Shown one piece after another: positions 12,138 to 63,175 of a DNA stretch of 64,000 nucleotides. Position numbers and translations under genes: made by a program. Within the stretch, counting starts at the first letter, position 1, and every line of letters begins with the position of its first letter. The notes beneath the pieces are model-generated. The model was not told the DNA's origin, ran no database searches, and saw only the letters and a list, made by a program, of their open reading frames with translations. This stretch comes from Pseudomonas syringae. Its GTDB lineage: Bacteria; Pseudomonadota; Gammaproteobacteria; Pseudomonadales; Pseudomonadaceae. The stretch covers positions 1,022,501-1,086,500 of the forward strand of contig NZ_CP066265.1 in NCBI RefSeq assembly GCF_023278085.1, given 5' to 3'.

Positions 12138-12497
12138 TCAGCTCAGGCGGTTTGCACCAACGTGATCAGCGCCATCAGCGGCCAGACGGTTTGCACCGAC
12201 ATGATCAGCGCCATCAGCAGCTTGACGATTGGCGCCTACACGATCAGCACCATCAGCGGCCAGACGATTTGCACCGACGTGATCAGCGCCGTCGGCAGCC
12301 TGACGGTTTGGACCTACACGATCTGCGCCATCAGCTGCTACACGGATCGAGCCGACGTTAGTATGTTTGGTCCCGCCTTCAGCAACGATGGTTGCTTTGG
12401 ACATGTCGTTGTGGACTGTATCGACTGCTGGAAGAGCGAACGCGCTCGACGCCAGAACAGAGAAGGCCAGGCCGAAGATCAGTTTGTTGGTTTTCAT
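12138..12497 (-). CDS. secreted protein with five 13-residue tandem repeats
   Basis: 119 residues from ATG 12497 (GGAG-type site upstream). The signal peptide is MKTNKLIFGLAFSVLASSAF with cleavage expected at or near ALP. A short linker (VDTVHNDMSKATIVAEGG) leads into five copies of AADGADxVGxNRx that run to the last serine. Related small Pseudomonas proteins with AEGGADR-like repeats are often called 'phage infection protein' in databases, without functional proof. Expected in the periplasm or outside the cell. The repeats are hydrophilic with regular Asp spacing. Confidence 0.78.
   Translation of the reverse strand: MKTNKLIFGLAFSVLASSAFALPAVDTVHNDMSKATIVAEGGTKHTNVGSIRVAADGADRVGPNRQAADGADHVGANRLAADGADRVGANRQAADGADHVGANRLAADGADHVGANRLS
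12144..12338 (-). repeat. 5 x 39-bp tandem repeat inside the small secreted protein gene
   Basis: Five adjacent 39-bp units encode AADGAD[RH]VG[PA]NR[QL]. Units alternate between RVG...NRQ and HVG...NRL, suggesting duplication of a two-unit block. Confidence 0.85.
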
Positions 12498-42548: not shown

Positions 42549-43816
42549 ACAGATGAGGCAGCGTCTTTCGCTGCCTCATATTGGTTAACCCAGGAGAGCC
42601 ATTCGGTGGCAGTCACGCTTGCATAATCAATCTTGAAGGTGTCGCTGTCGCCCGGTACTGCTTGCGTCGGGTGACAGCGTCTTCAACCTGGCTCCAAGTG
42701 AGTTTGGTTGTTGCCGCGGGGGGAGAGGCTGCTCAGCACGTATAGCTTGGACGACGTTGCAAGAGTGGGGTGCGAGCATTCGGAAAGGGATTCAATCTTG
42801 CTCACAAAATTTGGGCGATTCAATAAAGACTGCGCGCTTAGCCTATGGGGGCTGCGACGGGAGAGAGATAATGAATATTGCGGGAATATAGGAGAGTGTC
42901 GGGTTTAAAAAGTTTTCTGAAAAATTGGAGCGGGTAGACGAAATCGACCCCTTATTGGCCAGCATTATTCGAATCTGTGTATCTGTGTATGTATTGCCCC
43001 GAGGCAGCGCTGAGAAAAGCGTGTAGTGAGAAAAGCGTGTAGTTGTGTGTTCTGAGGTGGCTGATTTGCTGGGGCTCGTCCCTTCGTCAGTGGAAATACC
43101 CTCCAATCTCGACTTACTCACATGTGAGCGAAAGCCTGAGATTCGGATATCTGGAACATCGATTTCTTCCTAACCTCACCGGATCGCATGATCCGTTTCC
43201 CGATCCGTATCCCGCGCACATTGGCGCGGGATTCGATTCGTGAGAGATGATCCGACTTACTCCTGAGGCGATTCCACTTGTGGTTCTTGTGACCCTAACT
43301 ACATCGGATCATTTCAAGCAATGAAGCTCGGTAACCATTCCTCATCGGTTTGTCCGTCGACCACGTATCGATAACTTGATGTCGAAAATATTACTTGCCC
43401 ATTATTTTCCGCTGCAAGTGTCCTCAGCGCTTGGAAAGCGATGCTGCCGAGCAGTACGCATTAAGGGAGAGGCGTAGTGACAGCCCGGCGGGCAGCCTGC
43501 TGACGACGCCTGCCCAGCCAGAACGCTTCCTCCAGCCTCTTCCGGCTGTATTTCATCGGCTCCAGGAAAAAACCGCCTTAAGTCGCAAGAAAGCATGCCG
43601 ACAACCTCATCAGCAATGAGATTGAAGGTCTTCGACCGTGTCCTGGCGTACCTTCTCGAAGAGCAACACCATCGTCAAGATCAAGGCGGAGCAAACGCGC
43701 GTGAAGGTCATGACGCCAGTTTTCAAAACCGCTCAGCGGCTTGAACTCATCACCGATCCGTACCCGATTCTTGCGTCATTGACCTGGCCAGGCATGCCTT
43801 GCCCCGGAGTTTCTAC
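42549..43816. other. 1.27-kb region without a supported gene
   Basis: Contains a terminator-like hairpin just after the RTX gene (42553-42579, 11-bp stem atgaggcagcg/cgctgcctcat, loop tcttt), a degenerate tRNA-Gly 3' fragment at 42926-42950, and otherwise no convincing open frames; the few short ones lack ribosome sites and domains. Composition is mixed, and 42880-43030 is notably AT-rich. This looks like decayed or recombined DNA. Confidence 0.6.
42926..42950 (-). other. degenerate copy of the tRNA-Gly 3' end (possible att remnant)
   Basis: tggagcgggtaga then cgaaatcgaccc resembles the 3' end of the tRNA-Gly gene at 47044-47117 (tggagcgggtaga then gggaatcgaaccc) in the same orientation, with about three differences. 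Integrating elements that use tRNA 3' ends leave such a copy at the far boundary. Confidence 0.6.
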
Positions 43817-49460: not shown

Positions 49461-52400
49461 TCAGGCTATACCGGTAATCACCGAACCCGCTGTGGGGGCA
49501 TGATAGACGGGCGCGCGACTCAGCAGGGCCGATATTGCGGCACACCGGCAGTGCACCAGCAATATCCTGTCGTAATGGATGCCTTGAACCGACAGGCTGT
49601 CAAACAGATCGGCCAGCGACGGCGGGAGCATGCCGAAGCGGTTGCGCACCGTCAGCACATCCATCGGCGTCGGCGGCAACCAGCCCCGCAGAGGTGACGC
49701 TCTGGAGTGGCTCACTACGCGTGCGATCTCGTTATAGGTCTCGTCAGTTGTCGTCTGGAACTTGGACAGGCTGTAATTCTTCAGTCTGCCGGGCAGCGAC
49801 GTGCCTGCAATGAGTTTGTCGGTAATCTGTAGCGGCTCAAGTGGCGTGGGGTGCATCGCTGCGTGCACTGCCGTGTCTGAGCGTGCGAAAGGTCGGGCAT
49901 TCTTGTTGACGACGCGATGCAGTTTCGGGTCCACCAGTTCATAGCCATGCGGCGCGTAGGTGCGAATCTCTGTGCCGTTGGGGATTTTGACGGTACCGGT
50001 CCACGGTGTGTAGTAGCCGTGGGTGCTGACCACCAGCGTTCGCGCCTGACCTCGATCAGACGTCCATAACAGAAACTTCTGACCCAGCTTCCAGGCATGT
50101 ATCGGCAGCAGGTTTGAAGATGCAGCGGCGTTGAGGGTCCAGCGCTTGAGCAGGGCGTCGGTGTGAAAGAATTTCTCCAGCCGGGTCTGGCGCGGCGTCA
50201 CAAAGTGCCTGCGCAGCGGTTGGCTGCTCAGCGCCCTGTTGATCGCAACTGCTGTGTTCTGGGTGTTGCGCGCAGCAGGTTTGATGATTCTGCCCAGTGA
50301 GCGCAGCAGTCGTGGTGTGTGCGGGGTCAGTTGCAACAAGCCCAGCGATAACGTGGCGAGCAGCGCCTGATTTTTTTCCGCGTAGCGGCTGCCCGGTAAC
50401 TGTGTTGCGGCAATGGCCAGTGACGCGATGCCGACCTCCGTCGCCAGGGACGCTATAAACGCGGGTGTCAGTAATAACGACATGGGTATCAGCAGCCGTT
50501 GTAAATGCTGCAGCCGCTCGGCCCAGTCAGCCAGTGAAACCTGCGCCGAAGTGACGATCTGATCCTCTGCATCCTCCAGCGCATTTTGTTTGAGAAGCTG
50601 ATGCAGAAAAGCGAATGGCGTGTCTTCCAGCCTTTTTTCACACAACGAGTGGTGCATGGCCTGTCGCGTGTCAGGGTTGTGCAGCGCGTCGGTCCACGGA
50701 CGCAGGATAGAGGCGGGTGGGCTGGGCGCCTGGACGCCGCCCCACAATTTGAACAGGTAGTCCAGGCGCTGGTGATGGCGGCGTGGAACATAGCGCATGA
50801 CCGTTTCACGCCACTCCGGATTGGCTGTCTCCCGGTTCAGATACCGCGTCAATGCTGTGTCATCTGCAAGTTCGATGAATGCATTGGCGTGCCCCGCCTG
50901 ATAGAGCACTTTCAGTGTGCCCGGCTGTTCGAGTACCAGCAGGCCGGTGTACTGATGCTCCATGCCGTCGATCAATGAGCCCTGAACAAAAAAACCGAGT
51001 GCCCGCCATGGGTGCTGCGCAGAGGGCGTGAGGCTTTCTACAACCCGATCGAACCCGCTGCGCTTGAGACTGCCGCGTTTCAGGCTGATCAGCGCCTGGG
51101 TCATGAACGTGGATCTGAAGGCCTGTTCGATGGTCGCTTTCTGCTGGTCCCAGAAGTGATGGATTCGCTGGGTCATCCAGGTCAGAAAGTCGAACGTTTT
51201 GATGTAATCCTCAAGCGCCTGCGGACTGATCTCCAGCACCTGGCCCAGTTCACTGTTGCCCAGCCCGGTTGCGTCAAAGAAGACTACGGTGCCGCCACCA
51301 TGATCGATGTAGCCGACCGGATGATCGACCCGGTAATTGCTCACCAGCGCTTCGCTCAGGCTGATCGGCTTTTTGTCGGGCGTGTGGACATAGGTAGACG
51401 GCAAACGGGGATCGCCCAATGGTCGGGTCGAATAGCCGGACTGATAGGCGATGAAGACATGCTCCGGATTGAGGGTCAGCCCGTGATTTTCCTGTAGATA
51501 ACTCGCCATGACCTGCGTCGCCATTTTCGAAGCAACCGGCAACTGCTCCAGTATGGCCGGTCGTGTCTGCCAGAGGTCTGCGGCGCCTGCCAGAGCAAGA
51601 CTGCGCGCCACGGGCCTGAGCATATCTGCAGTGTCATGGGTGTGGTTGCCGTACAGGACCCCGGCGAATGAAGCCTGCGTCAGTGCGGCGAACACATCGC
51701 CTTCTATCAGCGGAGCGTCGGCAACAATGCTGACGTGTTCAAGTGCCAGCAGCGCATGACCGTAGAACCCGGATGCGTTCATGGCCGCCAATAATCGACT
51801 GGCCATGTAGTGGGGATCATCGCTGATGTATTCGATGACGTTGCCCTTGGCCCCCAGTATGTGAATAAAACAGTGCGAAGTGGTTTTCGACCTGACCTGA
51901 AATATCCCCGGCACCTGCTCGCCGTTCAACGAGAGTGCGCGAACCTCGGATTTATCGCCTCGTCCACTCGTGTCCAGCGTTTCTGTATCGAGGGGGAGGC
52001 TGCTCAATCCCAAGGCGTCCAGCGCCAGCCAGTAACCGTCGCGGCTGATATGCCGGTGGGTGTGCTGGCGGGCCAGAGTGTCAAGGAACGCCAGTCGCGA
52101 CAAGGTGCGCCAGGTGGCCTCGTGCCGGGTCCGGAAAGCCTGCAGTGCGGCGCTGTAATCGCGATCCAGCGGCATCTCGCCAATCCAGCGGAACACCTGC
52201 GCTGTGGTGAGCAAAGGCGTGTCTTCGGACAATGCAGTGTCGGTTATGGCGCTGCGATGCAGTGCAACAAAATGCTCAGGTTCAAAGCTGGTCAATGCCA
52301 CGTCGGTCAGTGACAGGCTGACGCTGTAATGTTCGCGCCCTTGATCATCCACTGCGGGCCGGTCATCGCTGCTGAAGGTCATCTGCAAGGTGTCCGGGTC

Positions 52401-52793
52401 CAGCACCTTGCCGCTCTTTTGCGTGAGCAGCGTGATCAGTTGTTGGCGAACGTAGTGTTGGCGGGTGGGTGGAACGTCCATGTCCAGCTGGCAGGCTTTC
52501 AGCAGCAGTACCGAGTCGGCAATCAAGCGGAAGCCAGGACTGCTGCGCAGAGTTTTGAGTTGGCGTTCGATGTGCGGCGCGAGGTCTTCCTGCTCTTGCT
52601 CTTCGGGCGAGGGCGGCAGCGCGGTTTCAGTCGTTGGAAAATGGAGTGTCGGGCGTACTGACAGGGCTGAAGCGTTAAGCGTGTCGTGCCGGATATCGCT
52701 GTGCTCGGGGCGCAGAACGCTGGGTTGTTCCAGCAGCAAAGAGTACGGATCAAACAGCGTGTCCTGAACAAGCGGACTCCAGATGGGATTCAT
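49461..52793 (-). CDS. large DUF6543 (dermonecrotic-toxin-like) protein with C-terminal Stv-like domain
   Basis: 1110 residues, no signal peptide. The N-terminal two thirds match the helical DUF6543 'dermonecrotic toxin domain' proteins of Pseudomonas: 'IERQLKTLRSSPGFRLIADSVLLLK', 'TLSRLAFLDTLARQHTHRHISRDGY', 'SMEHQYTGLLVLEQP'-like text (core YTGLLVLEQPG), and 'GIASLAIAATQLPGSRYAEKNQA'. The C-terminal about 200 residues ('RTLVVSTHGYYTPWTGTVKIPNGTEIRTYAPHGYEL', here only core VVSTHGYY and NGTEIRTYAPHG) look like the Stv domain, and 'YDRILLVHCRC' ends the protein. Toxin or effector role is inferred from the family; no adjacent immunity or delivery gene. The terminal Cys-rich motif 'VHCRCAA' may be a catalytic or metal site. 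Confidence 0.72.
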   Translation of the reverse strand: MNPIWSPLVQDTLFDPYSLLLEQPSVLRPEHSDIRHDTLNASALSVRPTLHFPTTETALPPSPEEQEQEDLAPHIERQLKTLRSSPGFRLIADSVLLLKACQLDMDVPPTRQHYVRQQLITLLTQKSGKVLDPDTLQMTFSSDDRPAVDDQGREHYSVSLSLTDVALTSFEPEHFVALHRSAITDTALSEDTPLLTTAQVFRWIGEMPLDRDYSAALQAFRTRHEATWRTLSRLAFLDTLARQHTHRHISRDGYWLALDALGLSSLPLDTETLDTSGRGDKSEVRALSLNGEQVPGIFQVRSKTTSHCFIHILGAKGNVIEYISDDPHYMASRLLAAMNASGFYGHALLALEHVSIVADAPLIEGDVFAALTQASFAGVLYGNHTHDTADMLRPVARSLALAGAADLWQTRPAILEQLPVASKMATQVMASYLQENHGLTLNPEHVFIAYQSGYSTRPLGDPRLPSTYVHTPDKKPISLSEALVSNYRVDHPVGYIDHGGGTVVFFDATGLGNSELGQVLEISPQALEDYIKTFDFLTWMTQRIHHFWDQQKATIEQAFRSTFMTQALISLKRGSLKRSGFDRVVESLTPSAQHPWRALGFFVQGSLIDGMEHQYTGLLVLEQPGTLKVLYQAGHANAFIELADDTALTRYLNRETANPEWRETVMRYVPRRHHQRLDYLFKLWGGVQAPSPPASILRPWTDALHNPDTRQAMHHSLCEKRLEDTPFAFLHQLLKQNALEDAEDQIVTSAQVSLADWAERLQHLQRLLIPMSLLLTPAFIASLATEVGIASLAIAATQLPGSRYAEKNQALLATLSLGLLQLTPHTPRLLRSLGRIIKPAARNTQNTAVAINRALSSQPLRRHFVTPRQTRLEKFFHTDALLKRWTLNAAASSNLLPIHAWKLGQKFLLWTSDRGQARTLVVSTHGYYTPWTGTVKIPNGTEIRTYAPHGYELVDPKLHRVVNKNARPFARSDTAVHAAMHPTPLEPLQITDKLIAGTSLPGRLKNYSLSKFQTTTDETYNEIARVVSHSRASPLRGWLPPTPMDVLTVRNRFGMLPPSLADLFDSLSVQGIHYDRILLVHCRCAAISALLSRAPVYHAPTAGSVITGIA

Positions 52794-52935: not shown

Positions 52936-54750
52936 TTACATGTTTTGCACGTGCGCACGCCAGCCGCCGAGATGACTGATGTCGCGTGCGCCCTCCAGGC
53001 CATAGGCTTCGCAGATGAAACCGGTCTCCCAGCGGCCGTCGGCCAGTTGCACTTTGCCCAACCCGAGCGGTGCCGGGATACCGGTCAGAAACGAGCCCAG
53101 TTCGGCGCTCGGCAGCTCCCAGACTTCGACGGCAATCGCCACGCCATCCTCGGTCACGCGCACCATGCCGGGCCTGAACGGCGGGCCGCCAGCCAGTGCA
53201 TACAGGCGATAATCGGCTGAGCTTTGCGTGGCCTCCAGCAACCGGCCGCCCCGTTTCCTGAGCTGCCAGTTCAATGCCAGACCGTCCAGATGCGCGCCGC
53301 ACACCACCACTCGGGCCATGTCATTGCTAGCGGTATTGGTCGGAGCAGGCAGCGCAGGGGCGTCACCGCCAATCAGCGGCAGGGCGGTTTGCCGCTGAAA
53401 GGCGTCCGCCAGGCTGAGCAGGTATTGATCGGTGAACGCTCTGCCGAACAGCGTTACGCCCCACGGCAGGCCGTTGTCCATGAAGCTGCTGGGCACGGCG
53501 ATGGCGGCGTAGTCGAGCAGGTTGACGAAGTTGGTGTAGTAGCCCAGTTCCGAGTTGCGCAGCACAGGTTCGGCGCTCAGTTCTGCCGAGGTCACCGGGC
53601 GTCCGATGCTCGGCGTCACCACGCAGTCCAGTCCTTCCAGCGCATGGTCGCAGATCACTTTCAGCGCTTGCAGGCGGTACTGTGCGCGAAAGGTATCGAC
53701 GCCACTGATCAAGGGCGCCTTGGCCAGCACCGCGCGAATCACTGGCAGCACGGCGTCGGGATGGTCCTCCATCAATGACCCGGCGACGCTGTAGCGTTCG
53801 GCCACCCATGGGCCTTCGTACAATAATTGCGCAGCTTCCAGAAAAGGTGAAAGGTCGACGGTAACCGCTTCGCCGCCCAGTGCCGTGAGGCGGTCGATGG
53901 CGTCACCGAACAGCAACGGCCCTTGAATACAGCCAAAGAACTCCAGGTCTTCGGCGCGTGGAACGCCGAAGCGAAACGGGCGCGGAGTGCCGAATGCGGA
54001 GGCGTCGTTCCACTGCGGATTGCGGCGGCTGTACTCGTCGCGTGGGTCAAACCTCGCAACCAGTCCCAGCAACTGGCTGGCTTCCCTCGCCGTGGCGGTG
54101 AAGGTCGACACGCAGTCTTGTGTGCGACAGGCGGGTACTACGCCCGCGGTAGAAATCAGCCCCTTGCTGGCCTTCATGCCGACCAGATTGTTCAGCGCCG
54201 CAGGCACTCGCCCCGAGCCTGCGGTATCGGTGCCCAGGGCAAAACTGCTGACCCCCAGCGCGACCGCCAACGAGGAACCGGAGCTGGAGCCGCCCGACGG
54301 ATACTCCTCCAGAACGCTGTTAGGACACGCGCCGTAGGGCGAGCGACTGCCGTTCAGGCCGGTGGCGAACTGGTCCAGGTTGGTCTTGCCTATCGGCACG
54401 GCACCCAGCGCAATCAACTGTTCGACGACTGTCGCCGAGCGCTCGGGCGTGTAGGCGTAATCCGGGCAGGCGGCGGTGGTTGGAATGCCGGCCAGATCGA
54501 TGTTGTCCTTGATCGCGAAGGGCACGCCGTAAAGAGGCAGATCCTTGAGATCGCGGCCTTCCAGCGCGGCGAGGTAGGGCTCCAGCTCGGCCGGGCTGAG
54601 CAGATGAATAAACAGGTGATAGCCAGGATTGAGCGCAGCGGCTTTTTCCCGCAGGGCCAGGATCAACTGGCGGGGTGACAGACGGCCAGCCTGGTAGGCA
54701 GCGCGCACGCTGTCCAGACGCAGGTTATTCGGCAGTGCTGTGTCGTTCAT
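52936..54750 (-). CDS. atzF: allophanate hydrolase
   Basis: 604 residues, typical of AtzF. Amidase signature domain (1-460): catalytic Lys in 'GVPFAIKDNIDLAGIPTTAACP' (about 81), Ser pair in 'YPSGGSSSGSSLAVALG' (about 155-165) and 'ALGTDTAGSGRVPAALNNLVG'. The C-terminal domain (about 475-600) is the allophanate-hydrolase cyclase-like lid ('VVVCGAHLDGLALNWQLRKRGG'). It splits allophanate into two ammonia and two CO2, the last step of the route. Last gene of the operon, 34 bp after the carboxylase gene. Confidence 0.96.
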   Translation of the reverse strand: MNDTALPNNLRLDSVRAAYQAGRLSPRQLILALREKAAALNPGYHLFIHLLSPAELEPYLAALEGRDLKDLPLYGVPFAIKDNIDLAGIPTTAACPDYAYTPERSATVVEQLIALGAVPIGKTNLDQFATGLNGSRSPYGACPNSVLEEYPSGGSSSGSSLAVALGVSSFALGTDTAGSGRVPAALNNLVGMKASKGLISTAGVVPACRTQDCVSTFTATAREASQLLGLVARFDPRDEYSRRNPQWNDASAFGTPRPFRFGVPRAEDLEFFGCIQGPLLFGDAIDRLTALGGEAVTVDLSPFLEAAQLLYEGPWVAERYSVAGSLMEDHPDAVLPVIRAVLAKAPLISGVDTFRAQYRLQALKVICDHALEGLDCVVTPSIGRPVTSAELSAEPVLRNSELGYYTNFVNLLDYAAIAVPSSFMDNGLPWGVTLFGRAFTDQYLLSLADAFQRQTALPLIGGDAPALPAPTNTASNDMARVVVCGAHLDGLALNWQLRKRGGRLLEATQSSADYRLYALAGGPPFRPGMVRVTEDGVAIAVEVWELPSAELGSFLTGIPAPLGLGKVQLADGRWETGFICEAYGLEGARDISHLGGWRAHVQNM

Positions 54751-54784: not shown

Positions 54785-57700
54785 TCAGTCTGCTGTCAGC
54801 ACCACAACCCGTTGCCCCGCGCGTACTGCCGAGCCGGGCTGCACCCGGACTTCCCGCACCACACCGCCGACCGGGGCGAGGAGCGGGATTTCCATCTTCA
54901 TCGACTCCAGAATCACCAGCACATCGCCTGCCTCGACCCGCTCGCCGGGTTGCACCTGGACCTGCCAGAGATTGCCGGCGATGTGGCTGTCGATGCCTTG
55001 CTGGCCCGCTTGCAGGGGCAATTCTTCGGTACTGGGGGTAGCGCCTTCGTCGCTCTGGAAATCCGCCTGGCCATTGGCGATCCAGCGTTCTCGCTCGGCG
55101 TTGAAGGCGGAGTGTTGCTGGGCTCGGAATGCCGCAATGCCATCGGCTTCGCGGGCCAGGAAGGCTTGGTAATCGGCCAGATTCAGGGTGCTGTGTTCGA
55201 TGTTCAGATCGAAGCGACCCAGGGGGAAATCGCGGCGGATGCGTAGCAGTTCGTCGGCGCTGACCGGGTAGAAACGGATCTGATCGAAGAAGCGCAGCAG
55301 CCACGGTTTGCCCTCGAACGCGGCGACGTCGCGATAGCGATTCCACATCTGCAACGTGCGGCCGACGAATTGATAACCGCCGGGGCCTTCCATGCCGTAC
55401 ACGCACATGTAAGCGCCCCCGATGCCGACCGAGTTTTCGGCCGTCCAGGTGCGGGCCGGGTTGTACTTGGTCGTCACCAGCCGATGGCGCGGGTCCAGCG
55501 GGGTAGCGACCGGTGCGCCGAGGTAGACATCGCCCAGCCCCATGACTAGATAGCTGGCATCGAATACGGTGCGCTGCACTTCATCGAGGTTGGGCAGGTC
55601 GTTGATGCGGCGGATGAACTCCAGATTGTTCGGGCACCACGGCGCGTCCTTGCGCACGGTGGTCATGTATTTCTCGATGGCCAGCTGACAGGCCGGATCG
55701 TCCCAGGACAAGGGCAGATGGACGATGCGCGAAGCGACCTGCAGGTCTTTCGCTGCGCACACCGCGTCCCATTCTCCGGCAATGATGTCGAGCAATTGCT
55801 GAAGCGGCAGTTGTTCGGGGCGGTAGTGGACTTGCAGCGAACGAATGCCCGGTGTCAGGTCGATCACGCCCGGCAAGGCCTTGGTTTCCAGCGCCAGCAT
55901 CAAGGCATGGCCGCGCAGACGCAGCACCAGATCCAGCTCCGGCGCGCCGATTTCCAGCAATAGATGCGTGTCGCCGGACAGACGCGCCACCAGACGTTTG
56001 TCGTCCTGACCAATGTCGAGAATGATCGGGGAGGGCAGGCGAGCCGCCTCATACGGGAGCGAGGCAGGACCTTGTAGGAGCGGACTTGTCCGCGAAGAGG
56101 CCGGTACATTCAATGCATTTTCTGCGTCTGGAATATGGTCTTCGCGAACAAGTTCGCTCCTACTGGAGTTTGCGGTGCCCTGTAGGAGCGGACTTGTCCG
56201 CGAAGAGGGCGGTACATTCAATGCATTTTCTGCGTCAGGAATACCGTCTTCGCGAACAAGTTCGCTCCTACTGGAGTTTGCGGTGCCCTGTAGGAGCGGA
56301 CTTGTCCGCGAAGAGGCCGGTACAGTCGATGGATTTTCTGCGTCTGGAACATGGTCTTCGCGAACAAGTTCGCTCCTACTGGAGTTCACGGTGCCCTGTA
56401 GGAGCGGACTTGTCCGCGAAGAGGCCGGTACAGTCGATGGATTTTCTGCGTCTGGAATATGGTCTTCGCGAACAAGTTCGCTCCTGCGGGCATCAGTGTT
56501 TCGCATATTTTGTGGCAACACTGCGGCCATCGCCGCATGACACGCCTCAATGCTCACCGGATAAAACCGCACCCTGTCCCCGGCTTTCAATTGCCCCAAT
56601 TGCCACAGATCCGCTTCGATGATGGTCACCGGGCAGACAAATCCCCCCAGGCTTGGCCCGTCCGGGCCGAGGATCACCGGCATGTCTCCGGTGAAATCCA
56701 CCGCGCCGATCGCGTACGGGTTGTCGTGGATGTTGGAGGGATGCAGACCGGCCTCGCCACCATCGGCGCGTACCCATTCAGGCTTGGGCCCTATCAGCCG
56801 CACGCCGGTACGGCTGGAGTTGAAATGCACTTCCCACTCAGTCGCAAAAAAAGTCTCGATGTAGGCTTCGGTAAAATACTCCGGCGCTGCATGAGGGCCG
56901 TAGATCACCCTCAGCTGGCGAACTTCTTTCAGCACGTCCAGCTCATCATCGGCAATCCGCTGCCCCGCACTGTGGTCAATCAATGGCGCGATATGCAGCA
57001 CATCTCCAGCGCGTAACGCCCGGCCGCCATGCCCGCCGAACTGGCCGAGGGTAAAGGTGCTTTTGCTGCCCAGATAATCCGGTACGTCCAGCCCGCCGCG
57101 CACGCACAGGTAACTGCGCACGCCAGCCCCCGCGATAGTGCCCAGCGACAGGCTGGAACCCGCGTGCACCCGCAGCGCGGTGTTCATGGCGCAGAGTTCG
57201 CCGTCCAGCGTGATCGGGATCTGCGCGCCGGTCACTGCGATCACTGCATCGGTATTGAAGCGCAGCAACGGACCGCTCATGGTGATTTCCAGCGCGGCAC
57301 AACCTTCGGCATTGCCCAGCAATCGGTTGCCCTGACGCAGCGCGCGACTGTCCATCGGACCGGATGGCGGCACGCCGACCGCCCAGTAGCCCAGTCGTCC
57401 CGGATAATCCTGAACGCTGGTCTGTGTACCGCCGCTCAGCACCTCAAAGGTGTCAGCGTGATACACCAGGCCTTCCAGACAGCGGGTCCACGGCTGGCCG
57501 CTGGCGAAGGGCGCGTCGTCGATGATCTGGCGCAGGTAATCGCGGTTGGTTTCCACTCCATACAGACGCGTTTCGTGGAGAGCGGCCGCCAGCCCGGCGC
57601 TGGCCTGATCACGGCTCGGTGCCCAACTGATCAGCTTGGCGATCATCGGGTCAAAATACGGCGGGATCTCACACCCGGCCTCAACCCAGGTATCAATACG

Positions 57701-58810
57701 CAGCGCACGGCCATCGGCAGGCGGAAAGTTCACCGCGGTCAGCAGGCCGGGGCAGGGCTGGAAATCACGGCCCGGATCTTCTGCGTACAACCGCGCCTGA
57801 ATCGCATGACCGACCGGGTTCAGGCCGGCTTGCAACTGATCGAGTGGCGGCAGATCACCGGCGGCCAGTTGCACCATCCAGCTGACCAGATCCACGCCCC
57901 AGACCTGCTCGGTGACACCGTGCTCGACCTGCAAGCGCGTGTTCACTTCCAGAAAATAGAAGCGCTGATCCTCGCTGTCGAAGACAAACTCGACAGTCCC
58001 GGCGCTGCGGTAATTGACCGCTTTGGCCAGCTTGATCGCCGCTGCGCACAGCTCATCGGACATGCCGTCCGGCAGGTTGGGGGCCGGGGTTTCTTCCAGC
58101 ACCTTCTGGTTGCGGCGCTGCACCGAGCAGTCGCGCACGCCGAGGGCCAGCACCTCGCCCTGTCCGTCGCCGAACACCTGCACCTCAAGATGGCGGGCGC
58201 GCTGGATGTACTTCTCGATGAACACACCGGCGTCGCTGAAATTGTTCTGCCCCAGGCGTTTTACCGCTTCGAACGAGTCCGCCAGCTCCTCGGCACTGCG
58301 GCACACCCGCATGCCGATACCGCCGCCACCCGCAGTGCTTTTGAGCATCACCGGATAGCCGATGCTGCGCGCTGCCGCGACGGCCGATTCCAGACTGTCG
58401 AGCAGCTCGGTGCCTTCCAGCAGCGGCACGCCGTGCTGTCGGGCCAGCGCACGGGCGGTGTGCTTGAGGCCGAACACGCGCAGTTGCTCGGGCGTCGGGC
58501 CGACGAACGCGATACCCACGTCTTCACAGGCCTGGGCGAATGCAGCGTTTTCGGAGAGAAAACCGTAGCCGGGATGAATGGCTTTGGCGCCGCTGGCTTT
58601 GGCGATGGCGAGGATCTTGTCCACCGCCAGGTACGTCCCGGCCGCAGCGCCTTCGCCCAGGCTGTGGGCTTCGTCGGCCTGCATCAGGTGCAGGCTGGCA
58701 GCGTCGGCTTCGGAATACACCGCCACCCCTTTCACCTGCAATGTGCGCAGGGTCCGCAGGATGCGGCAGGCAATGGCGCCACGGTTGGCGATCAGCAGTT
58801 TGTCGAACAT
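54785..58810 (-). CDS. uca: biotin-dependent urea/guanidine carboxylase with REP-array insertion
   Basis: 1341 residues, about 130-140 more than the usual 1200. Order: biotin carboxylase (1-450; ATP-grasp 'KSTAGGGGIGMRVCRS', 'FLEVNTRLQVEHGVTE'), AHS2/KipA (about 460-760), an insertion (about 770-913), AHS1/KipI (about 915-1080), and the biotinyl domain with attachment Lys in 'ILESMKMEIPLLAPVGG' (about 1305). The insertion is translated REP DNA (see the repeat) in the AHS2-AHS1 linker, so it likely spares catalysis. The riboswitch upstream and the DUF1989 genes mark the substrate as guanidine, giving carboxyguanidine. Annotated widely as urea carboxylase. Start ATG 58810. Confidence 0.94.
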   Translation of the reverse strand: MFDKLLIANRGAIACRILRTLRTLQVKGVAVYSEADAASLHLMQADEAHSLGEGAAAGTYLAVDKILAIAKASGAKAIHPGYGFLSENAAFAQACEDVGIAFVGPTPEQLRVFGLKHTARALARQHGVPLLEGTELLDSLESAVAAARSIGYPVMLKSTAGGGGIGMRVCRSAEELADSFEAVKRLGQNNFSDAGVFIEKYIQRARHLEVQVFGDGQGEVLALGVRDCSVQRRNQKVLEETPAPNLPDGMSDELCAAAIKLAKAVNYRSAGTVEFVFDSEDQRFYFLEVNTRLQVEHGVTEQVWGVDLVSWMVQLAAGDLPPLDQLQAGLNPVGHAIQARLYAEDPGRDFQPCPGLLTAVNFPPADGRALRIDTWVEAGCEIPPYFDPMIAKLISWAPSRDQASAGLAAALHETRLYGVETNRDYLRQIIDDAPFASGQPWTRCLEGLVYHADTFEVLSGGTQTSVQDYPGRLGYWAVGVPPSGPMDSRALRQGNRLLGNAEGCAALEITMSGPLLRFNTDAVIAVTGAQIPITLDGELCAMNTALRVHAGSSLSLGTIAGAGVRSYLCVRGGLDVPDYLGSKSTFTLGQFGGHGGRALRAGDVLHIAPLIDHSAGQRIADDELDVLKEVRQLRVIYGPHAAPEYFTEAYIETFFATEWEVHFNSSRTGVRLIGPKPEWVRADGGEAGLHPSNIHDNPYAIGAVDFTGDMPVILGPDGPSLGGFVCPVTIIEADLWQLGQLKAGDRVRFYPVSIEACHAAMAAVLPQNMRNTDARRSELVREDHIPDAENPSTVPASSRTSPLLQGTVNSSRSELVREDHVPDAENPSTVPASSRTSPLLQGTANSSRSELVREDGIPDAENALNVPPSSRTSPLLQGTANSSRSELVREDHIPDAENALNVPASSRTSPLLQGPASLPYEAARLPSPIILDIGQDDKRLVARLSGDTHLLLEIGAPELDLVLRLRGHALMLALETKALPGVIDLTPGIRSLQVHYRPEQLPLQQLLDIIAGEWDAVCAAKDLQVASRIVHLPLSWDDPACQLAIEKYMTTVRKDAPWCPNNLEFIRRINDLPNLDEVQRTVFDASYLVMGLGDVYLGAPVATPLDPRHRLVTTKYNPARTWTAENSVGIGGAYMCVYGMEGPGGYQFVGRTLQMWNRYRDVAAFEGKPWLLRFFDQIRFYPVSADELLRIRRDFPLGRFDLNIEHSTLNLADYQAFLAREADGIAAFRAQQHSAFNAERERWIANGQADFQSDEGATPSTEELPLQAGQQGIDSHIAGNLWQVQVQPGERVEAGDVLVILESMKMEIPLLAPVGGVVREVRVQPGSAVRAGQRVVVLTAD
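56073..56485. repeat. four in-frame 108-bp REP-pair units inside the carboxylase gene
   Basis: Units start at 56073, 56181, 56289 and 56397, exactly 108 bp apart. Each begins with tgtaggagcggacttgtccg (palindrome gcggac-tt-gtccgc), then a 55-bp spacer (ttttctgcgtctgg core), then the inverted REP cttcgcgaacaagttcgctc (palindrome gcgaac-aa-gttcgc). The unit is a multiple of three with no stop in the carboxylase frame, so it is translated, giving SRSELVREDHIPDAEN-type peptides (four copies). Confidence 0.93.
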
Positions 58811-58919
58811 GGCATAACCCCGGAAACCCAGTCGTGCTCGGTTTCGTGATGGGAAGCGGGCCGTCCCGCTATTGATCTATCTACGCAACGGTCGTCCGTT
58901 GCTGAGGGCGGTCGCCGGG

Positions 58920-59537
58920 TCAGTCGCGAATCAGCAACTGTGCGGGCGTCGGGTTGTAGCCGTTGCACGGATTGTTCAACTGCGGGCAGTTGGAAATCAG
59001 CACGATCACATCCATTTCGGCGCGCAGCTCGACGTATTTGCCGGGTGCGGAAATGCCGTCTTCAAAGGTCAGGCCGCCGTCGGCTGTCACCGGCACATTC
59101 ATGAAGAAATTGATGTTCGGCCCGATGTCGGCTTTGCTCAGGCGGCCGTCATGCAGGCAGGCGCGCAGGTAGTTGTCGCGGCAGCTGTGCATGTAGCGTT
59201 TCTCCAGGGCGTAACGCACGGTGTTGCTCTCCTGCGCGCACGCGCCACCCAGCGTGTCATGGCGACCGCAGGTGTCATCGATGATGGTCAGCATCGGCTG
59301 GCCGAGGTTGGAAAACAGCACGCTGCCGGTGGTCAGGTAAACGTTGTTCTGGCGGCGCAGGGTGCGTTGCACGTCGTAGCGCTCACGCGGGTTGGCGAGG
59401 CTGAAAAACAGCGTGTCGACCGCCTGATTGCCCTGCAGATCGAGAATGCGCACGGTTTGCCCGGCCTTGACCTCGGCCAGAAAGGGTTCGCCGGCCGGTA
59501 TGGTCGCGTCGCAGCACAGGTGATTGGATGAATTCAT
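58920..59537 (-). CDS. DUF1989 protein, UAAP2-type (carboxyguanidine deiminase subunit)
   Basis: 205 residues. DUF1989 core: 'PAGEPFLAEVKAGQTVRILDLQGNQAVDTLFFS' (core VRILDLQGNQAVDTLFF about 29-45), 'SVLFSNLGQPMLTIIDDTCGRHDTLGGACA' with a Cys likely for metal binding, and 'NFFMNVPVTADGGLTF'. Formerly 'urea carboxylase-associated protein 2'. Family work has shown such pairs (CgdAB) deiminate carboxyguanidine to allophanate. It follows the paralog by 11 bp and precedes the carboxylase by 109 bp. Confidence 0.9.
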   Translation of the reverse strand: MNSSNHLCCDATIPAGEPFLAEVKAGQTVRILDLQGNQAVDTLFFSLANPRERYDVQRTLRRQNNVYLTTGSVLFSNLGQPMLTIIDDTCGRHDTLGGACAQESNTVRYALEKRYMHSCRDNYLRACLHDGRLSKADIGPNINFFMNVPVTADGGLTFEDGISAPGKYVELRAEMDVIVLISNCPQLNNPCNGYNPTPAQLLIRD

Positions 59538-59548
59538 GGCAAGGCTCC

Positions 59549-60274
59549 TCAGGCGAACAGGCGGTCGGTGTTGATGAAGCCGCGCTCGTTTTCCGGGCGC
59601 GAGGTACGGCAGTGCTCGGCAACACTGGCATCGGCTTTCATCCAGCTGAGTTTGAGCGGCTGCGGCGCGTACTCCGGGTTAGGGTCCATCGGGTGTTGCA
59701 GCGCGGTCAGCACCACCAGTGTGTCCATCGGCGCATACAGCTCGATGTAATCACCGGCCTTCGAGTTGTTCGGGGCGAAGTGCAGCGTGCCCGTATCGTC
59801 GACATCCACGCGGCTGAACAGGTTGAGGGTCATGAGCAGGTCTGACAGCCCGAGCCCCCATTTGCCCAGCTCGACCAGCAGGTTGTCGACGCCATTGCGG
59901 AAGAAGCCGTTACGCAGCTCCTGATAGCGCCCCTGGCCGTACTTTTCGGCGACTTCCTGTGCGTTGAGCACACCGCCAATACTGTCGCTCCAGCCGCACG
60001 TGTCAGTGACGATGGCGGCCAGCACGCGGCCCATGTCCGAATACAGGCAATGGCCGTTGCTCAATTTGGCGGTGTGCTGGCATTTGAGGCTGTCCGGCAG
60101 GTTCAGGCGCTCGGTTTTTTCAGCGGCGTTGAGCAGGGTCAGGCTGACGTTGGCATTGCCATGCAAGTCGGTCAGGCGCAGCAGTTCGCCGCGCTTGAGG
60201 ATGAACGAGCGATGGCCGCCACCGGGCAGCAGCTCTTCGGCGAAAACCGGGTACAGCGTGGTCGAATCAGTCAT
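59549..60274 (-). CDS. DUF1989 protein, UAAP1-type (carboxyguanidine deiminase subunit)
   Basis: 241 residues. DUF1989 fold with 'LKRGELLRLTDLHGNANVSLTLLN' (about 26-48), 'HCLYSDMGRVLAAIVTDTCGWSDSIGG' (Cys conserved) and 'NLFSRVDVDDTGTLHFAP'. Longer than the UAAP2 partner by about 36 residues. Forms a heteromeric enzyme with UAAP2, acting between guanidine carboxylase and allophanate hydrolase. Its start overlaps the ATPase gene stop by four bases, so the transporter and enzymes are coupled. Confidence 0.9.
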   Translation of the reverse strand: MTDSTTLYPVFAEELLPGGGHRSFILKRGELLRLTDLHGNANVSLTLLNAAEKTERLNLPDSLKCQHTAKLSNGHCLYSDMGRVLAAIVTDTCGWSDSIGGVLNAQEVAEKYGQGRYQELRNGFFRNGVDNLLVELGKWGLGLSDLLMTLNLFSRVDVDDTGTLHFAPNNSKAGDYIELYAPMDTLVVLTALQHPMDPNPEYAPQPLKLSWMKADASVAEHCRTSRPENERGFINTDRLFA

Positions 60275-61053
60275 TGAACGGGCTCCTCTGAAGCGGTAAG
60301 CAGCGAATCGGTAGCGGCGCGTTCGGCGCGGCGTTCGCTGTTGAGGGGAATGTCGTACGTGATGCGCGCGCCATACGCACCGGGTTCATGCGGGTCGTGG
60401 CGCACCTTGTCGAAGACCAGCAGGCGGGTGCCGAGGTTGAAGCCTTCGGACAGGTCATGGGTGACCATGAATACAGTCAGTTTTGTCTCGCGCCACAGGT
60501 CCAGAAGCAAGTGATGCATGTCCTTGCGAATGCCAGGGTCGAGCGCGCCGAACGGCTCGTCCAGCAGCAGAACGCGGGGCTTCATGATCAGCGCCTGAGC
60601 AATCGCCAGCCGCTGCTGCATGCCGCCCGATAACTGCGTCGGATATTTGTCCAGCGCATGGCTCAGGCCGACTTTCTCCAGCAACTGCGCGGCGTGCTCG
60701 CGGGCCTGGCTTTTGGCCTGACCGAACAAGCGGCCGAGCAACGGCGAGCGGGGCAGCTCCAGGCCCAGCGCGACGTTGTCCAGCACCGACAGGTGCGGAA
60801 ACACCGAATAACGCTGGAAGACCACGCCACGGCTGGCATCCGGCTCGCTGGCCAGCGCTTCGCCGTCCAGCGTGATCGAGCCGCGACTCGGGGTTTCCTG
60901 GCCCAGCAGCAGGCGCAGAAAGGTCGACTTGCCACACCCCGAAGCGCCGACCAGGGTGCAGAACTCACCTTCGGCGACGTCCAGATTCAGGCCTTCAAGC
61001 ACCACCTGATCGTCGTATTGCTGCCAGACGTTACGCACACGGATAAAGCTCAT
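60271..61053 (-). CDS. ABC transporter ATPase of the guanidine operon
   Basis: 260 residues from ATG 61053; upstream frame is not used. Walker A 'LVGASGCGKSTFLRLL' (about 36-51), ABC signature 'LSGGMQQRLAIAQAL' (about 140-154), Walker B 'VLLLDEPFGALD' (about 160-171) and H-loop 'FMVTHDLSEGF'. Taurine/nitrate-type ATPase group. Overlaps the permease stop (ATGA) and the UAAP1 start. Energises uptake of the operon's nitrogen substrate. Confidence 0.93.
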   Translation of the reverse strand: MSFIRVRNVWQQYDDQVVLEGLNLDVAEGEFCTLVGASGCGKSTFLRLLLGQETPSRGSITLDGEALASEPDASRGVVFQRYSVFPHLSVLDNVALGLELPRSPLLGRLFGQAKSQAREHAAQLLEKVGLSHALDKYPTQLSGGMQQRLAIAQALIMKPRVLLLDEPFGALDPGIRKDMHHLLLDLWRETKLTVFMVTHDLSEGFNLGTRLLVFDKVRHDPHEPGAYGARITYDIPLNSERRAERAATDSLLTASEEPVQ

Positions 61054-61865
61054 GCGCGGGCTCCTTCGTACCAGGGAAAGGCGCGTCGGGTCAGGGCTTT
61101 CAAGCCCCAGTCCATCAGCCAGGCGAGCAGGGTGATCCACACCACATAGGGCAGAATCACGTCCATCGCCAGGTAGCGCCGGACCAGAAAGATCCGGTAG
61201 CCCAGGCCGTCGGTGGAGGCAATGGCTTCGGCGGCAATCAGGAACAGCCACGCTGAGCCGAGCACCAGTCGCAAGGCGATCAACAGGCGCGGCAGCAGTT
61301 GCGGCAGAATCACCCGCAGGATCAGCGTCCAGGTGGTGGCTCCCAGCGTCTGTGCCTTGATCAGCAGTTCGATCGGGATCTCCCGGGCGCGCTGTTCCAG
61401 ATCACGGGCCAGAATCGGCGTGATACCGATCACGATCAGCATCACTTTCGACAGCTCGCCCAGACCGAAGACGATGAACAGAATCGGCAGGATCGCCAGT
61501 GGCGGCACCATCGACAACACCGTCAGCAAAGGCGACAGCGGGGCGCTGAACAGCGGCAGAATGCCCGCCGCAATGCCCAGACACAGGCCCAGCAAGGCGC
61601 TGATCCCGAGACCGATCGCCAGACGCTTGAGGCTCGACGCAGAGTCTTGCCACAGCAGGTAGTCACCGGTTCGGGCGTCAGCGGTGAACGCCACGCGTTT
61701 GACCGCATCGGCCATCTGCATGGCGCTGGGCAGCAGTTTGTCGGTGGGGTTTTCCGCAAGCCGGGTGGCCGAGCCCATGAAGTAGGCGAACAGCAACAGG
61801 GCGAACGGCAGGATCACCAGAATCAGGCGACCGGCGCGATCCGGATGGCGGTTTATCAAGCGCAT
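61050..61865 (-). CDS. ABC transporter permease of the guanidine operon
   Basis: 271 residues, about six TM segments, BPD_transp_1 type of the SsuC/TauC group. EAA-like loop 'LIKAQTLGATTWTLILRVILPQLLPRL' (about 170-196) contacts the ATPase. N-terminal TM about 15-30 and a soluble stretch before TM2. Four-base overlap with the ATPase gene and 27 bp after the binding-protein gene. Confidence 0.92.
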   Translation of the reverse strand: MRLINRHPDRAGRLILVILPFALLLFAYFMGSATRLAENPTDKLLPSAMQMADAVKRVAFTADARTGDYLLWQDSASSLKRLAIGLGISALLGLCLGIAAGILPLFSAPLSPLLTVLSMVPPLAILPILFIVFGLGELSKVMLIVIGITPILARDLEQRAREIPIELLIKAQTLGATTWTLILRVILPQLLPRLLIALRLVLGSAWLFLIAAEAIASTDGLGYRIFLVRRYLAMDVILPYVVWITLLAWLMDWGLKALTRRAFPWYEGARA

Positions 61866-61892
61866 GGCAATGACCTTTCTACTGAGCGTGAT

Positions 61893-62960
61893 TTACAGCG
61901 TGCCGTCGACGGCCATCTGCACGTAGCTGGGGTCAAAGTGCAGCTTGAGGTTGGCCTTGTCGCCGAGGATCACACCCTTGGCGAACGACATGCCGACTGC
62001 GTTTGCGTCGCGTGCGCCTTCGCCGAGCAAGCCGTGAGCGAACGAGAAGTCAGCCACTTTGCGCTGGGTTTCGGGCAACTGTTTGCTGGTGGCGAACTCA
62101 AGCGCTTCCTTGGGGGTGGCGAACAGTCTGGTGGTGTCGAGTTGCGCCTGGAAACCGGCAAGATCGGTGCCCGATGCCTTGGCCATGTGCTCAAGTGCAG
62201 CCTTGCTCTGGGCGTTTTTGGCGTTCATCAGCGCAACTGTTTCAAACCATGCGCCGGTCAGGGCTTTGCCCAGTGCCGGGTTGTCTTTCAGGGTCTGGGT
62301 GTTGACGACCATCATGTCCATGATTTCGCCAGGGATCTGACTGGAATTGAAGACTTCGGTGACGCCGGGTTTGGCTTTGATGTCCGACAGCATCGGGTTC
62401 CAGGTGGTCACCGCCTGCACGTCATCGGTATTGAAGGCGGCCGAGATATCGGCGTCCGAGGTGTTGACGACCTTGAGGTCTTTTTCGCTGAGTTTGACGC
62501 TGTCCAGCGCTCGGGCCAGCAGGTAATGAGACACCGACAGCTCGACCAGATTGACGTCCATGCCCTTGAGGTCGGCGACTTTCTTGCCTTCGCCCTTGAT
62601 AACCACGCCGTCGTTGCCGTTGGAAAAGTCGCTGACGATCAGCGCGGTGCTTTCCACACCGCCTGCGGCTGGAATGGTCAAGGCGTCCATGTTGGTCATG
62701 GTGCAGCCATCGAACTGGCCGGCGGTGTACTGGTTGATGGATTCGACGTAATCATTGAGCTGAGTGACATCGATTTTGATGCCGTACTTTTTCGCCCATT
62801 TGTCGACGATGCCCTGGCTGCCTGCGTATTCCCACGGCATCCAGCCTGCGTAAATGGTCCAGCAGACGTTGAAATGATCTTTCTGGGCGGCATTCGCCGA
62901 GAGGCTCAACGCAGCCAGCAGGCCTGCGGTGAGCAGACCGAAGAGACGAGACTTTTGCAT
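61893..62960 (-). CDS. ABC transporter substrate-binding protein of the guanidine operon
   Basis: 355 residues from ATG 62960 (GGAG 9 nt upstream). Signal peptide ends SANAA (about residue 24). NMT1/SsuA-like periplasmic fold: 'FNVCWTIYAGWMPWEYAGSQGI' (core NVCWTIYAGWMPWEYA), 'FDGCTMTNMDALTIPAAGG', 'GNDGVVIKGEGKKVADLKG' and 'AVTTWNPMLSDI'. First gene behind the guanidine riboswitch, which suggests guanidine or a related compound as ligand. Annotated elsewhere as a urea-carboxylase-related transporter. A farther ATG at 63002 would fall in the terminator and is rejected. Confidence 0.92.
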   Translation of the reverse strand: MQKSRLFGLLTAGLLAALSLSANAAQKDHFNVCWTIYAGWMPWEYAGSQGIVDKWAKKYGIKIDVTQLNDYVESINQYTAGQFDGCTMTNMDALTIPAAGGVESTALIVSDFSNGNDGVVIKGEGKKVADLKGMDVNLVELSVSHYLLARALDSVKLSEKDLKVVNTSDADISAAFNTDDVQAVTTWNPMLSDIKAKPGVTEVFNSSQIPGEIMDMMVVNTQTLKDNPALGKALTGAWFETVALMNAKNAQSKAALEHMAKASGTDLAGFQAQLDTTRLFATPKEALEFATSKQLPETQRKVADFSFAHGLLGEGARDANAVGMSFAKGVILGDKANLKLHFDPSYVQMAVDGTL

Positions 62961-62981
62961 GTTGAGAAATCTCCAGTAGTG

Positions 62982-63033
62982 AAAAAAGGCGGCCAGGAGC
63001 AACGTGACACCACTGGTGTCCCTGTCTCCCGGG
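62982..63033 (-). terminator. riboswitch-controlled intrinsic terminator
   Basis: Read on the minus strand: CCGGGAG pairs with CUCCUGG (7 bp, one G-U), the inner stem GACACC pairs with GGUGUC (loop AGU), and CCGCC is followed by six U. The left arm CCGGGAG overlaps the last conserved aptamer element (GCCCGGGAGA), so the terminator and the folded aptamer exclude each other. Confidence 0.83.
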
Positions 63034-63120
63034 CTTTTGTCCCGCCGTGTAACCTCTACTGGAGGTCGCCAACTCTCGGACCAGCCACTTGCCTGTCGGC
63101 AAGCCGGAACCCTAGTCGGC
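63025..63120 (-). ncRNA. guanidine-I riboswitch aptamer (ykkC class)
   Basis: Conserved blocks in order on the minus strand: CTAGGGTTCCGG (about 63104-63115), CTGGTCCGAGAGTT (about 63070-63083) and ACGGCGGGACAAAAGCCCGG then GAGA (63025-63048). These are the signature of the guanidine-sensing ykkC subtype 1 aptamer. It sits upstream of the binding-protein gene, so guanidine would switch the whole operon on by preventing the overlapping terminator. Confidence 0.96.
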
Positions 63121-63175
63121 TATTGCAAATTGTGGTGCCGCGAACCTGTGTTGACTCCTGCACATCCGCTATCAA

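Follow-up and report, generated by a model that had tools for sequence, protein, structure and literature searches.

The window analysed here is a stretch of 64,000 nucleotides from Pseudomonas syringae (NCBI RefSeq assembly GCF_023278085.1, contig NZ_CP066265.1, positions 1,022,501 to 1,086,500 of the forward strand). Its minus strand carries a predicted guanidine carboxylase gene (54785..58810), and inside this gene, in frame, lies an array of repetitive extragenic palindromic (REP) sequences arranged as inverted pairs (REPINs). In most of the homologous genes examined, REP-like sequences occupy the same linker of the enzyme. The array consists of four in-frame REPINs. We consider it likely that the linker serves REPINs as a tolerant harbour, that they are repeatedly renewed and amplified there, and that the enzyme selects just for an open reading frame (ORF). 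A further-reaching proposal, which we hold tentatively and with rather more doubt than belief, is that the linker has been a permanent coding niche throughout the life of the genus, overwritten in register by the REP family current in each genome, so that mobile elements rewrite a translated part of an enzyme.

REPs owe their name to being extragenic, and they were reportedly proposed by Tobes and Pareja in 2005 as extragenic signals for genome reannotation. Lying in frame within a gene, such "extragenic" elements, which are of a likely mobile kind, would supply part of a probably working protein. The REP-derived linker of the predicted carboxylase is predicted to be translated as a spacer between two domains.

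A REPIN array in frame between two enzyme domains

Tandem Repeats Finder reports a tandem array at 56073-56485 with a period of 108 bp, 3.8 copies, 95% match and zero indels. The array holds eight REP cores of alternating strand, four per strand, which start at 56075, 56141, 56183, 56249, 56291, 56357, 56399 and 56465. They form four inverted pairs with core starts 66 bp apart, which is the doublet structure of a REPIN. Unit 1 (56075..56162) comprises the REPs 56075-56096 (+) and 56141-56162 (-), unit 2 (56183..56270) the REPs 56183-56204 (+) and 56249-56270 (-), unit 3 (56291..56378) the REPs 56291-56312 (+) and 56357-56378 (-), and unit 4 (56399..56486) the REPs 56399-56420 (+) and 56465-56486 (-), the last with one mismatch. 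Neither the array nor its units are assigned to a strand.

The minus-strand ORF 54785-58810 runs uninterrupted through the array and encodes 1341 aa. About 140 codons of array (RSELVRED...SSRTSPLLQG) are inserted in frame between the upstream CT_A_B domain (AHS2; 56561..57379, minus strand, residues 478-750) and the downstream CT_C_D domain (AHS1; 55325..55984, minus strand, residues 943-1162). The family model TIGR02712 (urea carboxylase) matches the protein with 1858 bits (cut-off 1304) and has 1201 positions, so that the excess is 140 residues. The first-pass annotation had already placed REPs in frame in the AHS2-AHS1 linker and had given the enzyme without the insert the family length; both statements hold. 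Its four 108-bp units stand as four REP pairs with that period, the tandem repeat itself counting 3.8 copies, and its stop-free unit is open in the frame of the gene and stop-free in three of six frames. Because the array is stop-free in several frames, it is also crossed by two antisense ORFs, 56013-56540 (+, 175 aa) and 56086-56622 (+, 178 aa), which are likely spurious gene calls.

The elements are repeated in this genome. At up to two mismatches, the window genome has 83 REP sites, eight of them in the carboxylase gene, and 66-bp REP pairs are also present elsewhere. One Y1_Tnp match over the cut-off (G000:C1:391247-391573) adjoins REPs at 391658 and 391737, the neighbourhood of a REP-associated tyrosine transposase (RAYT). 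This gene appears RAYT-like and may mobilise this REP type. A second Y1_Tnp match in the window genome falls below the cut-off. The one usual attribute of REPs that is absent here is extragenic location, since the array lies inside an ORF with domains on either side; extragenic location is a statistical habit of REPs and no structural feature.

The linker in homologous genes

Homologues were collected as the best matches to the window protein and then by rank for most rows, with some skipped; three rows (G393, G358 and G113) were picked for odd length, and the set is thus not random. It is mostly Pseudomonas, with a few Stutzerimonas, Azoarcus-type and unclassified metagenome-assembled genome rows, and a species may recur with differing sequences. 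The 202 loci gave 200 linkers, L087 and L100 having been dropped because the downstream anchor was absent, and 173 of these were distinct. One of them, L115, contains a run of N (an assembly gap) and was excluded from the REP counts, which leaves 172 linkers.

Each of the 172 gap-free linkers is stop-free and a multiple of three in length, the shortest measuring 48 and the longest 921 nt. When both strands were scanned for a generic REP core (22 positions, up to four mismatches), it was found in 143 of them, with 317 matches in 26,268 nt; the same scan gave no match in 103,197 nt of upstream coding DNA from the same genes. A motif-free inverted-repeat score averaged 19.0 in the linkers, as compared to 6.2 after codon shuffling and 6.7 for windows taken upstream, and a score of at least 11 was reached by 140 of 172 linkers as compared to three of 170 genes when the best of three upstream control windows was taken. 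The insert had been thought of as a possible peculiarity of one strain; with REPs in the same linker of 143 of 172 homologous genes it is not.

REPs are read in several phases at this site. Counted by gene, the forward REP is in phase +2 in 123, +1 in five and +0 in five genes, and the reverse REP in phase -2 in 115 and -0 in 17. One linker site therefore encodes different peptides, among them RSELARE...SRASSLLQ, FASKLAPT, LWEPGLPAM and SWLASD...SLASQLPQ. An unrelated repeat occupies the same linker in some species (L033, L090, L094, L101 and L200) and encodes SPLPPGEGPGVRA- or SPSPQPSPGGRGG-like peptides.

Two groups of homologues served as controls. In an alignment, the window enzyme has Asp at a position which is Asn in the K. 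lactis urea carboxylase 3va7, and which we take to be the exact residue that separates guanidine from urea carboxylases. Asp is present in 173 of 173 homologue rows, and Asn in ten of ten Pseudomonas homologues of a second type. These ten Asn-type homologues (L295-L304), predicted urea carboxylases, show 58-59% identity, and seven of their genomes also contain an Asp-type gene. Their linkers of 75-117 nt are free of palindromes, with inverted-repeat scores of 5-8. The other control came from 274 genomes of the class, of which 20 besides the window genome matched and gave 21 non-Pseudomonas linkers. One of these, L282, was too short for scoring; none of the 20 scored linkers has palindromes (scores 3-9), and one of them, L279, is out of frame and has a stop. 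With both controls palindrome-free, REP filling characterises the Asp-type gene of Pseudomonas and its near relatives rather than the fold.

REP types and probable renewal of the linker

The two REPs of one linker resemble each other. In 111 linkers with one REP per strand, the pair differs by 1.33 of 22 positions, as compared to 4.61 +/- 0.16 for shuffled partners. The stem palindromes vary between linkers (GCGAGC/GCTCGC, GCTGGC/GCCAGC, GCGGAC/GTCCGC, GCGAAT/ATTCGC, GGGGGC/GCCCCC).

The type of REP in a linker was compared with the stock of its host for 35 linkers; 38 genomes were searched, three of them without a fetched linker. Type A (GGAGCTGGCTTGCCAGCGATG) is found in four of the 35 linkers, and the respective genomes hold 39-362 further copies, the other 31 a median of 0. 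Type C is likewise found in four linkers, with 55-196 further copies in those genomes and a median of 0 in the other 31; a search of the 38 genomes located it in ten, among the closest relatives. A tree built on the aligned flanks of the linker requires at least 12 switches between the two commonest stem types among the 83 rows labelled from their peptide, and at least 13 changes in REP presence, counts that depend on the detection threshold and on the peptide-read labels. We infer that REPINs from the stock of the same genome overwrite those of the linker time and again. The likeness of the pairs also owes something to whole REPINs being inherited through clades.

A simpler history would be one ancient REPIN insertion, inherited and drifting without renewal, the arrays being late local duplications. 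The phases +2 and -2 shared by most linkers and the filling across the genus would fit it. Against it, the two REPs of one linker are far more alike than partners from different species. The at least 12 switches of stem type among the 83 labelled rows, the existence of other phases and the unrelated SPLPPGEGPGVRA-type repeat in five linkers also speak against it, and we regard it as unlikely.

In the renewal we favour, the linker would have acquired a REPIN on more than one occasion, probably beginning early in the history of the genus. Insertion driven by a RAYT, or recombination (gene conversion) with REPINs elsewhere in the genome, presumably overwrites the resident REPIN, which would keep the two REPs of the linker alike and let them track whichever REP type the genome currently carries. 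The 108-bp (36-codon) unit of the P. syringae-like group would have been multiplied by slippage or unequal exchange. Out-of-frame products would be purged, since both the CT_C_D and the biotinyl domain are encoded downstream. The linker peptide is predicted to be a disordered tether whose sequence has no specific function.

Copy number and the 108-bp period

Among P. syringae-like linkers the number of REPs ranges from one (L003, L118) and two to four (L004, L119, L121, L037, L035, L116) to long arrays of eight in the window, ten in L112, 14 in L113 and 16 in L002. The linker of genome G094 measures 921 nt (307 codons, REP-free tail included) and has eight units. In four long gene arrays, 19 of 19 spacings counted are 36 codons. 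The linker L116 (G192) has an irregular array with a 14-codon sub-repeat (EGYIPDPENPSTAR), still in frame. On the question raised by the first-pass annotation, copy number varies among relatives and the frame is always kept (172 of 172 gap-free linkers).

That the unit is divisible by three does not by itself call for selection in the gene. The 108-bp unit also occurs intergenically in the window genome (G000:C1:5115664-5115793, between a GGDEF gene and an HDOD gene). In G094, whose carboxylase also has a 108-bp array, an exact REPIN array of 108 x 8 is flanked by two conserved genes, one for OmpW and a convergent one for an epimerase (L268:2220-3150, G094:C2 near 1636763); the stop-free frame over it gives one weak Pfam match, no stretch of it passing alone. 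Seven tandem arrays from six other hand-picked regions in relatives (L273 holds two) were compared. Two of the seven have periods in multiples of three (108 x 8 in G094 and 222 x 7 in G192), and the remaining five vary (118/115, 181/180, 130/135/133, 123/124 and 121/124). Since the 108-bp unit and its exact spacing are found between genes, divisibility by three is no proof of selection and selection need not explain it. It is a property of this REPIN family that let it fit. The sole point that fits selection is that non-multiples are missing from the gene.

Selection on the frame and on the peptide

The flanking domains are under purifying selection: in 15 pairs among six genes, the ratio of non-synonymous to synonymous substitution rates (dN/dS) lies at 0.051-0.089 on the upstream side of the linker and at 0.032-0.092 on the downstream side. 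Between repeat units, the proportions of synonymous and non-synonymous differences (pS/pN) are 0.043/0.060 in the window array (non-repeat codons trimmed), 0.106/0.100 in G094 and 0.076/0.073 in G212. The repeat units show no visible amino-acid constraint. Constraint is evident in the enzyme. The first-pass annotation had presumed that selection preserved the frame, and this stands; no selection is visible on the SRSELVRED-type peptide, where pN is not clearly below pS.

An independent function of the repeat peptide, such as binding, tethering or assembly, for which it would have been amplified, is very improbable. SELVRE and SRTSPLLQ recur among units, and eight copies are kept in G094. Non-synonymous change between units is about as fast as synonymous change, and other phases give unrelated peptides at the same place, for example FASKLAPT and LWEPGLPAM. 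The unit, moreover, is also intergenic.

An assembly error or a decaying gene is less credible still. An N gap interrupts the array of G325, and in G212, a draft of about 330 contigs, the part of the carboxylase (L201) that precedes the array is distributed over three frames, through sequencing error or decay. Arrays are present in G094, G383 and G192 on contigs of 5.8-6.0 Mb, as well as in the window genome, and are therefore not one assembly's error. In the window the ORF is intact, and with dN/dS of 0.03-0.09 on both sides of the linker the gene is not pseudogene-like; neither of these two suspicions, both raised by the first-pass annotation, found support.

Evidence against renewal, and the hairpin

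A number of observations weigh against a linker renewed from the genome's stock and held open by selection on the frame. Loci were found by protein match, which biases the set toward intact genes. The bias to phases +2 and -2 could be explained by common descent, conversion or stop avoidance, and the likeness of REP pairs could come partly from joint entry and inheritance through whole clades. Stems with at least five of six pairs occur in 211 of the 222 REPs of one-per-strand linkers, a count that is partly built in since the ends of the search consensus are complementary. Type B, found in 11 linkers, matches its hosts weakly (2-1782 further copies versus a median of 55, p=0.014), and one of these hosts has just two other copies. 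At the threshold used, 29 of the 172 linkers have no REP-like site, some of them holding eroded or other palindromes (L006, L077, L084, L089, L108). Two genomes with many REPs, G358 (297 type B copies) and G071 (77 type A copies), have linkers free of them, so that filling of the linker is not automatic. In the Asn-type homologues a similar linker stays unfilled. The exact 108-bp period as proof of frame selection was ruled out, exact 108-bp and 222-bp arrays being found outside conserved genes. Between the units of G383, pS/pN is 0.000/0.020, with changes too few to tell. Lastly, AlphaFold2 (residues 450-1180, 46 sequences) gave a mean predicted local distance difference test (pLDDT) score of 55, with 30-43 and no secondary structure over most of the linker; this overall score is poor, parts of the domains being also low, so that the result is consistent with disorder of the linker and no more than suggestive of it.

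Some of these points bear on another explanation, in which the hairpin is the selected feature and REPINs in the mRNA would delay translation between CT_A_B and CT_C_D or adjust the stability of the message, the palindromes being kept paired across species for that reason. The RNA of the array folds at -210 kcal/mol versus -124 +/- 6 for shuffles (z -14.5), which excludes chance for the array, and stems are paired in different letters across linkers, subject to the same consensus bias. The 29 linkers without a REP-like site at the threshold count against it, as do the hairpin-free linkers of the scored non-Pseudomonas and the Asn-type homologues. The linker types A and C track the REP type of the genome, as is expected under renewal but not under selection for the hairpin alone. 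We think selection for the hairpin improbable and continue to prefer renewal of REPINs in a tolerated linker.

The guanidine gene cluster and its surroundings

The carboxylase has a complete domain set (biotin carboxylase, CT_A_B, CT_C_D and biotinyl). Directly upstream of it lies a predicted guanidine-II riboswitch (58856..58903, minus strand; Rfam RF01068, 43 bits, gathering threshold 32), and at the head of the cluster a predicted guanidine-I riboswitch (63024..63126, minus strand; RF00442, 93 bits, gathering threshold 63), both scoring above their gathering thresholds. On the same strand, profile matches identify an allophanate hydrolase (52936..54750) and the urea-amidolyase-associated proteins UAAP2 (58920..59537) and UAAP1 (59549..60274), both DUF1989. 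By analogy with a published operon (PMC12186494), from which the enzyme name is taken, the latter two are likely carboxyguanidine deaminase subunits. Three genes of an ABC importer (ABC_tran, BPD_transp_1 and an NMT1-like binding protein) follow at 60271..63002 on the minus strand.

The available text of PMC12186494 describes an Asp/Asn rule that separates guanidine from urea carboxylase, and an operon with importer and deaminase genes under guanidine-I and carboxylase and allophanate hydrolase genes under guanidine-II. The layout of the window cluster matches these guanidine assimilation operons. The riboswitches, the operon layout and the active-site Asp together lead us to call the window enzyme a predicted guanidine carboxylase. 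The account in that text is silent on repeats in the enzyme; the window enzyme has a REPIN array.

Beside the operon, a 1110-aa ORF (49461-52793, minus strand) has Pfam matches to ToxA_N (dermonecrotic toxin N-terminal) and Stv. The window also contains a 39-bp tandem repeat in five copies outside any ORF of at least 250 aa (12139-12335) and a perfect 16-bp tandem duplication (43011-43043).

Elsewhere in the window genome, the 38 loci read cover 74 of the 75 REP sites that lie outside the carboxylase, all but the one near 4430833. There are 27 listed ORFs of at least 120 aa over a REP; of the ten scanned with Pfam, one has domains, and these lie on both sides of the REPs. This is a PALP-OCD fusion of 786 aa (L244:797-3157, minus strand, G000:C1 near 2753091) whose domain junction holds a REPIN in frame (..CGSELARESGGSGMTPSRASSLP..). 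The REPIN is absent from fused PALP-OCD homologues in G018, G050 and G022, and G056 has a related insert whose frame contains one TAG.

Meaning of the locus and comparison with known systems

The linker offers replicate insertions made by nature, along with changes of REP type and of copy number, in an enzyme whose predicted activity should be measurable. At one locus it can be tested how REPINs move or convert, what the frame costs, and how a protein linker is supplied and rewritten by mobile DNA. For annotation pipelines, it is a caution against cutting or shortening genes at REPs.

REPINs and RAYTs of Pseudomonas were described by Bertels and Rainey in 2011 (PMC3116915). The elements reported here share with them the inverted doublets with spacer, the tandem arrays, the RAYT-like gene beside REPs and the genome-specific types, as far as the consulted portion of that paper describes them. 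The REPs of that portion are primarily extragenic: in SBW25, only 14 of the most abundant 16-mers (1,067 occurrences) overlap genes. Here, in contrast, a single enzyme linker contains REPINs in frame in most of the homologues examined.

Intragenic GTAG/CGTC REPs were reported by Di Nocera et al. in 2013 (PMC3733652), with the view, in the text available, that a REP inserted into a flexible linker or loop may be neutral. Those REPs, like ours, lie inside known genes, often as dimers or clusters. The largest REP-encoded regions given there are 43-82 aa, whereas here the region has about 140 aa and the linker up to 307 codons in G094. One shared site is described there (recB in two Xanthomonas), whereas here one site recurs genus-wide with several REP types. 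Neither "urea" nor "carboxylase" occurs in the main text of PMC3733652, which lists its target genes in Additional file 3. In the consulted portions of the literature found, including PMC3116915, PMC3733652, PMC10969869, PMC3390384 and PMC12186494, there was no report of REPs in a urea or guanidine carboxylase, nor, in that literature, of REPs filling one site across a genus.

Rickettsia palindromic elements (RPEs) are in-frame palindromic repeats of about 150 bp in protein genes, as described in parts of PMC10969869 and PMC3733652. Compared by description, as an analogue, they share with our REPINs that palindromic repeats are accommodated in frame with no evident destruction of the gene. RPEs are scattered across unrelated genes, whereas the REPINs described here fill one linker repeatedly. 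Intragenic REPs (PMC3733652) and in-frame palindromes of Rickettsia (PMC10969869) are thus already known from these sources. New with respect to the literature found is one linker that is REPIN-filled in most of the homologues examined in a genus, with several REP types, several phases and arrays of up to eight units.

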